Below, one piece after another: positions 30,182 through 37,217 of a stretch of 64,000 bases of DNA (positions within the stretch are counted from its first letter, which is position 1; each line of letters begins with the position of its first letter). Source of the stretch: Candidatus Brocadia sp. (GTDB lineage: Bacteria; Planctomycetota; Brocadiia; Brocadiales; Brocadiaceae). The position numbers were made by a program, and so were the translations under genes. Location: positions 1 to 64,000 of the forward strand of contig WYAU01000040.1 in the NCBI GenBank assembly GCA_011525665.1. The letters are read 5' to 3'. Below the pieces are notes generated by a model. It had not been told where the DNA came from, ran no database searches, and was given only the letters and a program-made list of their open reading frames with translations.

Positions 30182-32415
30182 TTGCTGTTTCTGTTAAGAA
30201 CAATCAGGAATACTGAATTGGGTTCCATGCTTATGTTCAGTGTTGCTGTATCTTTTGTTACATCGATGGATTCGGTCTTCTTCGAGCCCTCCAGGGATAT
30301 TTCTTTCCATTCGTTGATCTTGTCAATCTGCTCCCGGATGTAATTTTGCCGAACTACTTTCAACTTCCTGAACCCCATTTCTATGTCTTTTCTTTGAAAC
30401 CCTTTTTTCGTGAGCTGATTAAAAAGTTCTTTCCAATTTCTTTTGTTTTTAGCGAGTTGAATTTTTTCCCTCAGGAGTTCTAAGTCTTTTGCGCTGTAGC
30501 CTTTTGATAAAAGGAGATCTTCCAGTTTTTTTTGTGCATATTTATTTGCATCGGCATCTGCCTGCCACACGGCTTTGTCGACCATTCCGCCAATACCGCA
30601 GAGCGTGTCTGTGGGGGAAGTCTCTGTTTTTTTATTCAGCCTGCAGGCGTTGCTGTGATTGCCATCAATAGTGTATACCGTTGCAGAGGTTGATGGTGAG
30701 AAGGGAATGTTTGTGAAATCAATCGTGAGTTGTTTGCTGGAAGCGGTCCTTTTTACTGTATCCAGTAGCTCAGATGCTATCTTTTTTGTTTCCGGGTACT
30801 TTACCTGGGATGATGCCGCGTGAAAATAACCGGGAACATCCGCAAAGGATGATTTTTTATGGAATCGAAGATAGGTGTTGATAAGAAACTCGGCTGTTTC
30901 TCTTTTCTGTTCATCGTTCAATTTTGCAATAAACTGGTCTTTGCAGGAAAGTAGTGTGTCTTTTTTCTTTTCCTTTCTCCCTTCCTGAATGCATTCTTTT
31001 ATCCAGTTGATTTCTTCGGGAGTGAATCCGGATTTCTCCAATAATAGCCTCGCAATATAAGTGCGCAATCTTTCCTGTTTTGGTACGAAATTGCTTAAAA
31101 GTACATAAATGCCGTCATCTTTCATTGTGGATATCGCTACAATGTCATCCGTAGAAGACTCTACACGTAACATTTCAGGAATTTTATTCCCTGCTGGCTT
31201 TGTAGCCATCGTTAATGCCCTAAACGAGTTATATATAGGTTTGATTATGCCATGTTTGGTAAAGAGTGGCCAGTCACCGATAAATTCCGCGTTCTGCCTC
31301 TCTTTCCGCCGGCTATTTTCATGCGCGTCAACCTGGATATCAAAATCATGTCCGTGCCAGTCAACGCCGCCCTTCCACATAGAGAAAAGCGCAGTTATGG
31401 CTTCAGCAGCGGTTTCTTCCGTATCGAGATAATCGTCGGGATAAGGCCATCCAGCCCAATAAGCCCAATCGGAAATATAGATCCTGACGTTATCAAGGTT
31501 CTTTTCCTTTAACCACCGGGAGGCCATTTTGCCATCGCTGACAAACTGCCTTGAATTGTGGGTAAAAGAATGCCAATTGATGAAATCCAGCGGAACATTA
31601 TTTTTAGAGACATATTCGATGAAACTTTTGAGTAGAGGGTCTTCTTTCGGATTTTCCCAACCGCCATCCCTTTTCGCCAACTCGGCGACAGTGGAAGTAA
31701 TGCCTTCAAAGTCCGCGCCTTCCTTTTTCGCCGTTAAACTCCAGGGGCCGAGACCGCCAACCTTTATCTCGCTGCTCACGCTTTTAGCAGACCTTGCAGC
31801 TGCTTCATAATATTTAAAGAGGCTCTCTTCCGTTCCCATCCAGAGCCAGTTCGGTTCATGACCCACATAAAAACCCAATTTTTTTACTCCGAGTTCGTTT
31901 CGCAAAAAACTGAGTGCATAATTCACCACCTCCCCCCAGTGCTGGTACTCCCGCGGAGGTGATAATTGCTCGATTGTCCACCAGCTTTCGTGGGTAAACG
32001 CCGGCCTGAGGTCTCCTTGCCTTAAGGAAAGCCAGGCAGGTATGGTGAAGGGATCGAAGCCCACGATTAATTCTGCGTCGGCCTCTTTTGCCTTTTGGGC
32101 GATGAGATAGGGTATCCCTGATGGGTGAAAGAACTCGTTCTTGAATTTATGCTTATAATCCTCAAGATTTTTGGTTTTCGGGAGGAAGAGATCAAAGGTA
32201 AACTGGATTGTTTTTGGATGATTTTCTTTAAAGAAACGTTCTATATTATGCCGGTTGTTTGCCTTAACGATCCATATGCTGCTGCTGAAGAGGTCAGGTA
32301 CCGGTCCCAGTCCTTTTGAGGCATCCACTTTCATTTCTATCGTTTCTGGCTGGGCGTATACAGATTTCATTATCAGGATAGCCAGAATGGCCAATAGAGA
32401 TAAAAACATCTTCAT
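30178..32415 (-). CDS. GH39-like paralogue with nucleophile Glu replaced by Asp
   Basis: 745 residues, signal peptide (about 1-21). Same layout as the paralogue at 26604. The acid/base Glu is kept (E187 in VGHEPNWLW), but the nucleophile position reads ISDWAYW, giving Asp (D316) instead of Glu. The beta-sandwich strand YTIDGNHSNACRL and the helical insert are conserved, the latter longer (about 485-560 and 620-715). It is probably inactive or altered in mechanism and may bind the glycan or regulate its partner. It overlaps the GT2 gene upstream and the ligase gene downstream by 4 nt each. Confidence 0.75.
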   Translation of the reverse strand: MKMFLSLLAILAILIMKSVYAQPETIEMKVDASKGLGPVPDLFSSSIWIVKANNRHNIERFFKENHPKTIQFTFDLFLPKTKNLEDYKHKFKNEFFHPSGIPYLIAQKAKEADAELIVGFDPFTIPAWLSLRQGDLRPAFTHESWWTIEQLSPPREYQHWGEVVNYALSFLRNELGVKKLGFYVGHEPNWLWMGTEESLFKYYEAAARSAKSVSSEIKVGGLGPWSLTAKKEGADFEGITSTVAELAKRDGGWENPKEDPLLKSFIEYVSKNNVPLDFINWHSFTHNSRQFVSDGKMASRWLKEKNLDNVRIYISDWAYWAGWPYPDDYLDTEETAAEAITALFSMWKGGVDWHGHDFDIQVDAHENSRRKERQNAEFIGDWPLFTKHGIIKPIYNSFRALTMATKPAGNKIPEMLRVESSTDDIVAISTMKDDGIYVLLSNFVPKQERLRTYIARLLLEKSGFTPEEINWIKECIQEGRKEKKKDTLLSCKDQFIAKLNDEQKRETAEFLINTYLRFHKKSSFADVPGYFHAASSQVKYPETKKIASELLDTVKRTASSKQLTIDFTNIPFSPSTSATVYTIDGNHSNACRLNKKTETSPTDTLCGIGGMVDKAVWQADADANKYAQKKLEDLLLSKGYSAKDLELLREKIQLAKNKRNWKELFNQLTKKGFQRKDIEMGFRKLKVVRQNYIREQIDKINEWKEISLEGSKKTESIDVTKDTATLNISMEPNSVFLIVLNRNSK

Positions 32416-33215
32416 TGTGTCCTCCTTTTCAAAAGATCGTGATGTTTTCCATAAAACTTTGCATACGATTTAAAATGGGAAAAGAGCAATTGAATGCCTA
32501 TCCTGCTCAGGAGTTTCTTTCGCGTTATTCCGCTGACATAATGTTTAATAGTATAGGCTGGGTAATACATTACCGTATAACCGGCTTTTTTGATCCGTGC
32601 GCAATAATCAGCATCTTCGAAGCCGTAGAACATGTTTTCGTCCAGAAGACCTATACGGTTAAATATGTCTCTTCTGATGAGTTGAAAGGCGCCAATGACG
32701 TAGTCAACTTCAACAGGTTTATCCTGATCAGGAAATAATAAATGATGTGCCTTCATGAGCCTGCTGTTTCTAATGAAACCGAGAAACGCCAGCCTTCGCA
32801 GGACGATATCCCGTATGAGCGGAAATGTCCTCGATGCCGGGTACGGTTGATTGTCAAAGGTTATCTGTTGTACCCCCAGCAAGGCAATCTCGGGAGATGA
32901 ATCCATATAGGCAATGACATCGCCAAAATTTTCTGAAACGAATTCCGTATCGGCATCGAGCAGGAGAACGTAACGTCCGGTCGAACGTTTGAGAGACTGG
33001 TTCCTGGCACGTGCGACACCGGCATTCCGGTCGTTTTCTATCAGGAGAACATCAGGAAACTCTCTTTTGATAAGATCTGCAGTTCCATCCGTAGAGGCAT
33101 TGTCAACTACAATGATCTCAAATGGTCTATCCTTTAGCTTTTCGTAAAGTGAAATGAGACAATTTTTCAGAAAGTCTCTGTTATTATAGGTACAGATATT
33201 AATCGATAGGTCCAT
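32412..33215 (-). CDS. Family 2 glycosyltransferase (WbbL-like)
   Basis: 267 residues, GT-A fold. It shows NICTYNNRDFLKNCL, VVDNASTDGT, GVARARNQ and the metal-binding DAD in LLLDADTEF, then YGFEDADYCAR as the acceptor-side ED motif. It resembles rhamnosyl- or similar sugar transferases that extend a lipid-linked chain in the cytoplasm. It has no transmembrane domain. It overlaps the next gene by 4 nt. Upstream lies the degenerate defence island, so it is the first intact gene after the interruption. Confidence 0.9.
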   Translation of the reverse strand: MDLSINICTYNNRDFLKNCLISLYEKLKDRPFEIIVVDNASTDGTADLIKREFPDVLLIENDRNAGVARARNQSLKRSTGRYVLLLDADTEFVSENFGDVIAYMDSSPEIALLGVQQITFDNQPYPASRTFPLIRDIVLRRLAFLGFIRNSRLMKAHHLLFPDQDKPVEVDYVIGAFQLIRRDIFNRIGLLDENMFYGFEDADYCARIKKAGYTVMYYPAYTIKHYVSGITRKKLLSRIGIQLLFSHFKSYAKFYGKHHDLLKRRTQ

Positions 33216-33235: not shown

Positions 33236-33406
33236 GCTAATATTGGTTTTACGCGAGATCAATTACCAAAACTCAAAGAACTCGCCAATTTCCTGAATAG
33301 ACGAAAAAAATTCCTCAAGGTAAAATCGACCATAGGTGAGGTATCAAATACGGGAACTCCCACAGGAGCAAAAGAAGTGAGAAAGTTCATGCTAAAGCGT
33401 TTTTGA
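33236..33406 (+). pseudogene. Short open remnant, unknown
   Basis: An open frame of 56 codons with no ATG, GTG or TTG at its start. It reads GFTRDQLPKLKELANFL and then KEVRKFMLKRF, a regular amphipathic composition that looks protein-like. It may be the 3' part of a small gene belonging to the degenerate island next door. I do not recognise it. The interval 33407-33547 holds nothing that I can name. Confidence 0.25.
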
Positions 33407-33547
33407 GCAATGATCTGATTGGCTAAATGGCGGAACGGGAACATGCAAACAGAATCAGAAAGAGATACAACAATTTGTAGTATAAAGGAGCTTAATATTT
33501 ATAAATCCTTCATATTATACCTCTTGCTATAAAATTCTCAAGATGTT

Positions 33548-33700
33548 TTAACCGGTGATTTTTAAGGAACTTATTTGTAATACAATATTCTCTAATTCAT
33601 CTGAATTGATAAATGGCACTTGTGCAATAGTTATGTTGTCTTCTCCTTCCCGTTTAGCTGCAAGATGCCCCTTGCCTAATAGCCGCTCGGCACCTACCCC
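33548..33700 (-). pseudogene. Truncated C-terminus of an FtsK/HerA-type DNA translocase
   Basis: An open frame with no start, joined abruptly at about 33700 to the neighbouring fragment. It reads [18 protein letters not shown], then ITIAQVPFINSDELENIV, and stops at 33548. The GAERLLGKG motif is characteristic of FtsK-like motor domains, followed by the usual (V)(P/A)F-x-(S)D-E segment. Full-length proteins have many hundreds of residues, so more than 90 per cent is missing. Next to dndC sequences, the most natural parent is a DptH-like translocase of a phosphorothioation-dependent restriction system. This is inference. Confidence 0.5.
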
Positions 33701-33702
33701 CT

Positions 33703-34317
33703 CCAATTGAGGATTCAAGTGAACTTAAAGGAGAAGTTCAATTACTCCGTAAAGAAATCAGCAATCTGGAAGATGAATTAAGTAATGAAGTTATTCAAGA
33801 CCGTATTGCTTCTATTATTTCTATAATGAGCAAAGATATGGGTCTCTGGGCAAGTGAATTAAAGCTCGAGTATTCAGAATACCCCTTGAGACTTGATTTA
33901 AAACAATTAACAGTTGTAGCAGATACAGAAGCTGGACCTATTCCAATATTCAAAATGGGGAGTGGTGAAAACTGGGTTGGTTATCATCTCATTGTTCACT
34001 TTGCACTTCATAAATGGTTTGTTAAAAAAAAGCGGCCTGTTCCATGCTTTCTTTTCATTGATCAACCATCACAAATTGGCTTTCCAGCAGATAAAGATAT
34101 TAACGAAAAGATAGATAGCATTAAAAATGAGGATCGCGAAGCTGTTGCTCGGATGTATAGGTTAGCTTTGAGTGTTGTTCAAGAGTTGAATGGAGACTTT
34201 CAAGTCATATTAACAGACCACGCAGACATTAGTGAAAAATGGTTTCAGGACTGCGTTGTTGAGAGATGGCGTGGAGGAAAAAAACTTATTCCTGAAACAT
34301 GGGAAAGAAGCGGTTAA
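33703..34317 (+). pseudogene. 5'-truncated DUF3732 ATPase fragment
   Basis: An intact C-terminal part of about 204 codons with no start of its own (first Met at 33826). It reads [19 protein letters not shown] (end of a coiled coil), then [18 protein letters not shown], a Walker-B-like [13 protein letters not shown] and ILTDHADI. These mark the head domain of the SMC/ABC-like proteins with DUF3732 that occur in defence islands. Family members are about 600 residues or more, so the ATP-binding and most coiled-coil parts are lost. At its 5' end it meets the translocase fragment head to head. Confidence 0.65.
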
Positions 34318-34413
34318 TTTAAAATGATAGTTCGATGCTTTATGTAATTTTCCTTTGAGTTTCTTGATATGTTTGAGTTACAAAAGTTTTGCGATTGTTT
34401 AATTTAATAGCAA

Positions 34414-35445
34414 TTATGATAAGCTATCCTTGTGATATTTTCTATGCTGATAAAAATTTTCAATGCTTGGATAAAACTTTTCTTCTGCGGGCAATAATAT
34501 CATATTACCTTCAAATTGTCGTAATGAATAGATGCTTTTGCTTTCTACAAATTTCTTTGAAACAATCACTCTGTAATTATCATCAATTGCAATTAATCCT
34601 CTATCGAATGCCCTATGCAAATTAGGACACAAGGCAATTCCATTTTTGATTGTATCATCATAACTTTCACTCAATGGAACAATATGGCACGCATCAATCA
34701 TTGAGATATTAATAGTTGCATCCACCCTGAATCCAGAAATGCAACAGGTGTTGTTATAAATTTTTGGTATCTCTCTTTTGAAAATGCCTCCTCTCAAATA
34801 AATCTCTTCTTGATAGTTTTCTTCATCCAACTTCTTTTTCAGCTCTTGAACATGCGTACGATATTCTGCTGATTCCTCTTCTAAAATTTCACTTTTTACA
34901 TTGTTCAGGTAATCGTTTTCATTATGATCCGTGTAATTACCTTTTGTTTCCGGAAAATATTTTTCTAATAAAGTTTGCTTCAAAATTTCTCTGTTTTCTT
35001 TTTCTTTAAGTAATTCAAATAATTCAGAATCAATTTCTGCATATGCAACCGCAACATTTAAATTGTTAAAACTTCTCATTGAACCTTTGGAACTTATCCA
35101 TTTTTCACATCCAGCATTTGGAATAATTTTCCAAAACGGTTCGGAATTCATAGGATAAAACGGAAGTGCAAATTTTAAATCATGATCTGTTCTTACTAAA
35201 GCTGCCCAAGTACTTTTGAAAAAACCAACCAGTTCCGGGGTGATGTATATTTTATTAGTTGTAATCAGCTCATTTTCATAGGCTTGAATGATGCTTAAAA
35301 GTAAGATAGGTTTATGTGGTGCGCCTCCCTTTTTATAATCCCTTCTTAGCTTTTGAAAAGCGTTTACATAATAAGATAACTTTTTAATTTTATCTTTCCC
35401 TCTTAAGCTGCAAGTTGATTGATTTTCATTCTTTCGGTACACCAT
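34414..35445 (-). CDS. HNH endonuclease of a restriction/defence system
   Basis: 343 residues. The N-terminal domain has KGGAPHKPILLLSII, seen in many defence-associated HNH proteins. The C-terminal HNH domain (about 225-290) shows CCISGF, DACHIVPL and NGIALCPNLHRAFDRG with His, Asn and His in place. It is likely a restriction nuclease for modified or foreign DNA. The first 20 or so residues overlap the dndC fragment in another frame and look artificial. The true start may be a non-standard codon near 35360 after AGAGGGAAAG, or the original start may have been lost in the deletion that fused the two genes. It is clearly AT-richer than its neighbours. Confidence 0.75.
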   Translation of the reverse strand: MVYRKNENQSTCSLRGKDKIKKLSYYVNAFQKLRRDYKKGGAPHKPILLLSIIQAYENELITTNKIYITPELVGFFKSTWAALVRTDHDLKFALPFYPMNSEPFWKIIPNAGCEKWISSKGSMRSFNNLNVAVAYAEIDSELFELLKEKENREILKQTLLEKYFPETKGNYTDHNENDYLNNVKSEILEEESAEYRTHVQELKKKLDEENYQEEIYLRGGIFKREIPKIYNNTCCISGFRVDATINISMIDACHIVPLSESYDDTIKNGIALCPNLHRAFDRGLIAIDDNYRVIVSKKFVESKSIYSLRQFEGNMILLPAEEKFYPSIENFYQHRKYHKDSLS

Positions 35446-35834
35446 CTGAAAACATTATTCGGTGCTGGATACCCTTTTCCTATTAAATTTACCCAAAATG
35501 TATCTTCAAGTTTGGGGGCGGTGCGATGCACAGTTATTGGCAATGATTGCTCAACAGATGCCTTTTGGATTTTTCCCAATACCTTTTCAGTGTATTCGAG
35601 GATTTTTGGATTTTCTACCAATGTATTGTTGCACACGACATAAATTTTTCTTGTTCGTGGCTCTACCGGAATGGATTTTAAGGCATACCATACTAACTGG
35701 AACAACATGGTAGAGTCTTTTCCACCGCTGAAACCAACAATCCAGGGTCTATTATTATCTTTTGCAAAATATTGGTCGATGATTTCATTCTGGATTTGCT
35801 TTGGGCTGAAAGCGGCTGAGTTTTGATCAGTCAT
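35403..35834 (-). pseudogene. dndC: 3'-truncated DndC (DNA phosphorothioation sulfurtransferase)
   Basis: 143 residues of the N-terminal domain only; intact DndC is about 500 residues. It shows the ATP pyrophosphatase loop VGFSGGKDST, then LVENPKILEYTEKVL, DTFWVNLIGKGYPAPNN and RWCTERMKI, the PAPS-reductase-like signature of DndC. The normal sequence stops at MKI, followed by four foreign codons and a stop, exactly where the HNH gene begins. A deletion has removed the rest of dndC and the genes that should follow it. No dndB, dndD or dndE is present. Confidence 0.8.
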
Positions 35835-35931
35835 AGTTGGTTCTTGATGTAGATATGTTTTATTCTAGATTTGTAATGTTCCTACGATTATTACAAACAG
35901 GTACATTTGTAGTATGGGTATATCCGGTGAT

Positions 35932-36040
35932 TTATGGCGTTTCAACTTTATAAAGGAAAATCTTAAATCCATCTAAAGATTTCATGATTAAGCAGTCTCT
36001 CATCTCCTCATCCAACAGTACGTTGTTTATTGCGTCCCTG
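35932..36040 (-). pseudogene. Duplicated C-terminal fragment of a GT4 glycosyltransferase
   Basis: Immediately downstream of the GT4 stop codon, and partly overlapping it in another frame, the minus strand reads DAINNVLLDEEMRDCLIMKSL, matching DAINKVLLDEELRNSLIIKSL of the intact gene (36112-36205 on the map), then diverges and stops at 35932. It is the tail of a second, related glycosyltransferase gene, otherwise deleted. It marks the border of the defence-island remnant. Confidence 0.7.
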
Positions 36041-37193
36041 ACATATCAGGCGATAGATTTCCAGTGTCTGCTAATTTTCTGTATATTTCCAACGTTTTCC
36101 GGGCGGTATTCTCCCATGAAAAATCTTTAATCCGTTCTAAAGATTTTATGATTAAGCTGTTTCTCAACTCCTCGTCCAGCAGCACCTTGTTTATTGCGTC
36201 CCGGAGAGCAGTAACATCGTGCGGATTAACAAGTACGGCTGCATCCCCTGCAACCTCTGATATTACGGGAATATCAGATGCAATGACCGGTATTCCATGC
36301 CCCATTGCCTCCAGGACAGGCAAGCCGAATCCTTCGATAAGTGATGGAAAAACAAATACCCGTGCTTTTTTATAAATGTATTTTAAATCATCATCCTGGA
36401 CGTATCCCAGAAAAAAAACCTTTTCCTCTAATTTGCAATCATGAATAGCTACCTTTACATCTTCATATGCATTTCCCTTGTTACCGGCAATCACAATGGC
36501 ATAATTCCTTTGTAAGGAATTGTCAAGGAGGGAAAACGCCCTTATAATAGATTCAACCTGCTTTGTTTTTTCGATAACACCTACATATAATAGATAATGC
36601 CTGGGCAGGTGATACTTTTCGAAAATATATTCACCATCGTTGGTATCAACGGATAAATTCCCGGAGATACCTTCCAGGGTTACATCGATAGATTCAGGCG
36701 AAAAATCTAATAGATCTAGAATTGCCTTTCTCGTGGTATCTGATACGGTTATTATGAAATTGGCTTTCTTTATACACAGGAGAACGAAAAGACGTTTTGC
36801 ATAACTTTTAAGTGTTCCATATTTTGCTGGTTGAATGAACTCCGCAAGATCGTGGATGGTTACTACAATAGGACAGTGTCGTTTCAGAATTGGTATGGGA
36901 TTGGTATAATGAAGCACATGGAGTTTATACTTTTTTACCACTTTGGGGAATATCAGCGCCTGCCAGAATGCTTTTAACAGGATTCCTTTTGGCGGAGACA
37001 TTTGTATAAACTGAAAGTTGGATGCCGTGAGTGGCTTTACGAATCTTTGCCAGTGTGCATAGAAGATAAAATACTGATTCGTCTTATCCATTGTAGCGAG
37101 TTGATAGAGTATCTCTGTGGTATACCTGTCAGTACCTCTTAAGGTTTCGTTAGAGGTGATCATATTGATACCAATATTCAGTCTATTCTTCAA
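36027..37193 (-). CDS. Family 4 glycosyltransferase
   Basis: About 388 residues, GT-B fold. The N-terminal domain begins NIGINMITSNETLRGTDRY. The C-terminal donor-binding domain has VFVFPSLIEGFGLPVLEAMG and GIPVIASD, with the E-x7-E motif of retaining GT4 enzymes (E in LIEGFG and LEAMG). TTG 37193 has AGGA at good spacing. An upstream TTG (37208) lacks one. The last residues (PDMSGTQ) lie at the recombination junction with the duplicated fragment, so the native C-terminus may have been altered. Confidence 0.88.
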   Translation of the reverse strand: MKNRLNIGINMITSNETLRGTDRYTTEILYQLATMDKTNQYFIFYAHWQRFVKPLTASNFQFIQMSPPKGILLKAFWQALIFPKVVKKYKLHVLHYTNPIPILKRHCPIVVTIHDLAEFIQPAKYGTLKSYAKRLFVLLCIKKANFIITVSDTTRKAILDLLDFSPESIDVTLEGISGNLSVDTNDGEYIFEKYHLPRHYLLYVGVIEKTKQVESIIRAFSLLDNSLQRNYAIVIAGNKGNAYEDVKVAIHDCKLEEKVFFLGYVQDDDLKYIYKKARVFVFPSLIEGFGLPVLEAMGHGIPVIASDIPVISEVAGDAAVLVNPHDVTALRDAINKVLLDEELRNSLIIKSLERIKDFSWENTARKTLEIYRKLADTGNLSPDMSGTQ

Positions 37194-37217
37194 TGTTGAT
37201 CCTGCCAATCATCGTAA

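Follow-up and report, generated by a model that had tools for sequence, protein, structure and literature searches.

The segment at positions 33,236–36,040 of the window (the whole 64,000-nucleotide stretch of Candidatus Brocadia sp. DNA analysed here) is likely a scarred defence hotspot, in which a restriction gene for phosphorothioate (PT) DNA, encoding a sulfur-binding domain (SBD) and an HNH domain, has survived, and whose present arrangement goes back to displacement of the PT writer. The SBD would bind PT DNA and the HNH domain would cut it, restricting incoming DNA from dnd+ or ssp+ donors (type IV restriction).

Composition of the segment

The first-pass annotation reported four broken or orphaned pieces here (dndC, an HNH gene, a translocase, and a DUF3732 gene), all of which were matched in open reading frame (ORF) and family searches. 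The features are given below; G004 is a related genome.

32412–33215, minus strand: left-flanking GT2 glycosyltransferase (Pfam, 3.6e-28)
33548–33694 (ORF 33548–33724), minus strand: sspH 3' stub, last ~45–50 codons, stop at 33548–33550 (PADLOC SspH, 1.6e-13, profile positions 1721–1765 of 1766)
33695–34317 (ORF 33658–34317), plus strand: lmuB (DUF3732, Lamassu ATPase) 3' stub, ~206 codons, in-frame ATG at 33826
34414–35394 (ORF extends to ATG 35445), minus strand: SBD-HNH gene, 326 codons homologous to G004
About 34582–34746, minus strand: HNH_2 match in the SBD-HNH gene (Pfam, 2.9e-13)
About 34951–35394, minus strand: SBD, the N-terminal part of the protein
35398–35400, minus strand: ancestral HNH start codon, GTG in G004, GGG in the window
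35403–35834, minus strand: dndC 5' stub, codons 1–139 joined in frame to QLAA-stop (DndC profile, 3.1e-55)
35403–35417, minus strand: CAA CTT GCA GCT TAA (QLAA-stop), the end of truncated dndD in G004, similar to the ClpX LAA degron
35418–35420: deletion junction with ATCAA microhomology; 1.9 kb (remaining dndC plus truncated dndD) present in G004
35835–35978, minus strand: dndC upstream (promoter) region, common to G004, 86% alignment as far as 35978
35963–36041: 79-nt copy of the glycosyltransferase 3' end (36127–36205), 84% identical; right edge of the scar
36027–37208, minus strand: right-flanking GT4 glycosyltransferase (Pfam, 1.8e-39)

The stubs of sspH, lmuB, and dndC are dead. The translocase tail, described earlier as FtsK/HerA-type, indeed comprises the last ~50 codons of its gene, and its assignment is refined to the SspH type; of the sspF, sspG, and full-length sspH set, the window holds this 3' end only. 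The last ~200 codons of a DUF3732 ATPase are likewise confirmed (Pfam DUF3732, 1.3e-52; PADLOC LmuB, 4.8e-47, profile positions 434–609 of 611); this is the C-terminal third of LmuB, without the rest of a Lamassu system and its partner genes, and is 51% identical to a full-length LmuB in the genome G022. Resemblance to SspFGH and Lamassu is thus limited to 3' sequence: the final ~48 codons of sspH and ~206 of lmuB are all that is present of either system. DndC is cut after residue ~139, as had been noted (positions 12–138 of 481 in the DndC profile), and these 139 codons are all that the window holds of a complete dndBCDE writer. The head-to-head junction, previously placed at ~33700, lies at about 33695/33696, and the higher AT content is seen as well: GC content is 31.5% in the HNH gene and 37–40% in the stubs vs. 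45.0% in the whole window.

In the host genome (G000; 3.63 Mb, 99.9% complete), the region occurs once, and DndC is matched nowhere else. The ORF 33236–33406 (plus strand) has no family match and corresponds to intergenic sequence common to the relative G009. The region's inverted repeats, being short and imperfect, were taken as chance. The partial copy of the GT4 3' end (35963–36041) adjoins the GT4 gene itself; a similar short trace is seen in G003.

The SBD-HNH protein

The HNH protein is an SBD-HNH enzyme and probably a PT reader, which the first-pass annotation had missed; its likely role is type IV restriction of phosphorothioated DNA. Over the first ~148 residues it matches SBD-Hga (8h0l; phmmer, 3.6e-10), which is also the best match of the predicted fold (Foldseek, TM 0.84), followed by the SBDs of SprMcrA and ScoMcrA; prediction quality is low in the HNH half, the model being weak at residues 214–253. 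Residues H27, K28, and P78 are invariant in an alignment of 20 homologues and correspond to H116, R117 (or Lys), and P165, which form the sulfur pocket of ScoMcrA (PMC6224610). The HNH motif (H237, N251, H260) is kept, with N251 and H260 fully and H237 nearly invariant in the same alignment. The NCBI model of PT-dependent enzymes, NF045808, scores 95 bits, below its cut-off of 180; the model is narrow, and this weakens only the assignment to the named family. No SRA/SAD domain is found by Pfam in the HNH protein; in published tests, SBD-HNH enzymes lacking SRA cut PT DNA and block dnd+ plasmids (PMC7461809, PMC6224610).

Thus, the protein shares with SprMcrA, EcoWI, and SBD-Hga the N-terminal sulfur-binding fold, the His/Lys/Pro pocket, the C-terminal HNH domain, and the absence of SRA, but is distant in sequence (as reflected in the NF045808 score) and adjoins a broken dnd writer, whereas less than 3.6% of known SBD-HNH enzymes are reported near dnd genes (PMC7461809). 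Similar to the wHTH(SBD)+SAD+HNH proteins described by Iyer et al. (2024; PMC10853773), it would be a PT-binding HNH nuclease beside dnd genes; unlike them as described there, it has no SAD/SRA domain and takes the place of dndD, rather than following a complete writer. With the Dnd/Pbe operon (dndC-dndD-dndE) the window shares the dndC stub, but not dndD, which is gone, or a complete writer.

The HNH frame is open across 326 codons. The ancestral GTG start is changed to GGG, and the only canonical in-frame start is the upstream ATG inside the dndC stub, out of the dndC frame. The gene may now be silent because its start codon is lost and the sole replacement lies within the stub. The earlier suggestion that HNH may remain functional is upheld as a possibility: the gene is nearly intact, but lacks its GTG.

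Origin of the pieces

Comparison with related genomes, recommended by the first-pass annotation, reveals both the states of the defence hotspot and the source arrangement of dndC and HNH. The site between the two glycosyltransferase genes is full, nearly empty, or scarred in congeners. In G009, ~12 kb of other defence genes lie between the same two glycosyltransferases (L018, 2827–14866). G009 aligns with the window unbroken to 33695, inside sspH, where the window switches to lmuB while sspH goes on in G009, its remnant there having 67 codons in total and one stop; the contig of G005 ends within the same sspH stub. In G004 the site holds almost nothing besides a 37-nt sspH trace, and G003 and G018 have short spacers. 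SspFGH genes are intact in G002, spread over two contig ends, and a complete DndABCDE plus DndH is present in the congener G008. These full, empty, and scarred states identify the site as a defence hotspot inside a glycan cluster, with all three states within one genus; PT systems circulate in this genus, as in G002 and G008.

As to other contents of the site, the G009 island carries a DrmD-like helicase in two ORFs, a DRT-type reverse transcriptase (UG21/UG9-like), a ~485-aa protein weakly similar to pAgo, and a type III MTase with REase. The G001 site (L022, 2665–7089) contains a transposase, repeat-rich proteins, and other genes, and the next glycosyltransferase is inverted.

The dndC-HNH block of G004 lies 220 kb away, flanked by an rfbD-like gene and lpxB. 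It consists of full-length dndC (442 aa), a 332-aa remnant of dndD (positions 1–317 of 685 in the profile), and HNH, and is 86–88% identical to the window, from which 1.9 kb is missing. This deletion, at the ATCAA microhomology, left dndC reading in frame from codon 139 into the QLAA-stop of the already truncated dndD, a fusion that had escaped the first reading. A dndC remnant is present at the rfbD-like/lpxB site of G006 (L026, 7613–8687).

The lmuB stub has no DNA match in 39 relatives. As the sspH scar is common to G009 and G005, the dndC-HNH block lies 220 kb off in G004, and lmuB is unmatched, decay of one island is unsupported. The stubs stem from at least two acquisitions, with three being probable. 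The earlier view of a composite island shrunk by deletions holds insofar as the segment is a composite remnant with deletions; a single island decaying in place is not what the comparison indicates.

The dN/dS values between the window and G004, which average both lineages, are 0.118 for HNH, 0.069 for dndC codons 1–139, and 0.147–0.171 for the flanking glycosyltransferases. Judged by its value, HNH is the one gene of the segment still under purifying selection.

The site between lpxB and the rfbD-like gene is a second hotspot: empty in G002, G003, and G005 (about 14–22 bp), it holds the dnd-HNH island with IS3 in G004 (L019, 5597–17998), Wadjet-like SMC genes in G009 (L171), and ~1.1 kb of small genes in G000 (L170).

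Recurrent displacement of dndD

The dndC-stub/HNH arrangement recurs in other bacteria, another point missed by the first-pass annotation. Scanning ~85,000 species genomes identified 80 close SBD-HNH loci; 37 more came from additional searches, making 117, with a few genomes of the first set repeated; many loci were read with limited flanks, and some contigs end. In many of them dndC is directly upstream of SBD-HNH, being full-length in about a dozen loci and truncated or reduced to the first 27–54 residues in others; many further loci have no dnd gene nearby within the stretches read. The dndD N-lobe is absent from the 117 loci, except for a distant match (29%) in L108; L090 retains only a coiled-coil piece of dndD. 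Several loci have a dndD C-lobe remnant of 110–388 residues and a DndE-HerA gene after HNH. In the PADLOC model PDLC02742, the dndD N-lobe of G004 matches one half and the dndD C-lobe of L099 the other. On the opposite side, none of 12 intact dndC-dndD-dndE operons has an SBD-HNH gene within about 10 kb in the stretches read. Direct replacement is seen among close relatives: between the intact locus L250 and L084/L246/L081, dndC is 86–88% and dndD C-lobe plus dndE 84–85% identical, while 1.61 kb of dndD is exchanged for 1.08 kb bearing HNH. On the DndC tree, six switches of neighbour between dndD and HNH are counted, and well-supported branches force at least five of them.

The missing N-lobe, the HNH-free operons, the switches in the tree, and the direct replacement together show, at the level of gene order and phylogeny, that the SBD-HNH nuclease has displaced the PT writer repeatedly. 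The displacement pattern may have been described earlier. A reader of matching specificity would be incompatible with an active PT writer, and because the two could not coexist, SBD-HNH would be found repeatedly where the DndD ATPase half was, next to intact, truncated, or nearly erased dndC. Why some PT-cutting enzymes adjoin PT-writing genes was a question left open in PMC7461809, where broken dnd clusters are suggested as one explanation; the approximately dozen loci with full-length dndC but no dndD are poorly explained by pure decay. In this clade the writer is in fact broken, repeatedly and at its ATPase, which is direct evidence from evolution for mutual exclusion of reader and writer.

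Other routes of spread were rejected: a conserved mobile-element terminus before HNH (no common DNA around HNH starts) and viral spread (only two weak relatives in IMG/VR contigs). Among four SBD-HNH plasmid loci inspected, none lists dndC, and one lists dndD/dndE ~3–5 kb off. In L099 (11034–12608) and similar loci, the dnd operon closes with a ~520-aa fusion of a DndE domain and a HerA/DndH-like ATPase. In L096 (1568–3357) and L091 (543–2357), truncated dndC ends with NKLAA and NKLVA, respectively, and is immediately followed by two small genes (the first TIR-like, with a ThsB match), a caspase-like gene, and then SBD-HNH; these genes are variable cargo where dndD was.

Alternative explanations

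The segment might be entirely dead, with HNH also a pseudogene in an ordinary deletion scar and its dN/dS predating the loss. The change of GTG to GGG and the removal of the rest of the operon by deletion agree with this, as does the likewise low dN/dS of the dndC stub, by which truncation may be recent; on the other hand, the 326-codon frame is open, the pocket and the HNH motif are retained, and so is the dnd upstream region, making this account plausible but the less probable one. It is rather unlikely that DndC and SBD-HNH form a functional pair, with DndC still making or sensing a sulfur mark in the absence of DndD, HNH serving as its effector, and the window copy being broken. About a dozen loci, some of them adjoining dndA, have full-length DndC right before HNH, and this, like the tight dndC-HNH spacing, would fit such a two-gene system, but in other loci DndC is cut at many different points or is only 27–54 residues long, known PT modification requires DndD, and the at least five switches with dndD remnants left behind favour displacement. 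A two-gene system would also suit the reported occurrence, 3' of Dnd modification genes, of HNH proteins that carry a PT-binding wHTH (SBD) (PMC10853773).

Ends of the truncated dnd genes

Under the preferred reading, displacement of the writer, HNH would be expressed from the old dnd promoter, and the in-frame dndC stub would be a translated leader cleared via its LAA end; an LAA end is recognised by ClpX. More tentatively, SBD-HNH genes could be recurrent invaders of PT operons that replace the DndD half, seize promoter and translation, and keep the truncated writer as a leader with an acquired -LAA degron, the window being a takeover later moved to the glycan hotspot and trimmed further.

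A hydrophobic residue followed by AA-stop ends 11 of the 1549 ORFs of at least 100 aa in the loci, seven of these being truncated dnd genes at junctions, the window included. By class, such ends occur in 7/11 truncated dnd genes, 0/27 full-length DndC (p = 2.6e-5), and 4/1538 other ORFs; the count is post hoc and shared ancestry (window with G004, L092 with L096) makes the p-values overstated, the enrichment still being large with five lineages. The -LAA ends could instead be a leader carried by the HNH gene and retained after in-frame deletions, rather than selected degrons, an option that is plausible but less likely than not. The same QLAA leader DNA follows dndC in the window and dndD in G004, and in L081/L084 the TAQ end of dndC gives way to KVA/NVA where HNH adjoins, as expected of a carried leader; however, lineages show no conservation of the DNA beyond the stop, codons differ, the LAA end of L096 precedes the TIR gene instead, and stubs shorter than 55 residues have no LAA end. 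Selection for removal of the translated stub and inheritance of a leader together with HNH would both account for the AA-stop ends. Should these ends be genuine degrons, they would exemplify, in nature, the gain of disposal tags by truncated genes. An origin of the LAA end from the host tmRNA was rejected for G000 and G004, where the tmRNA tag ends with AMAA.
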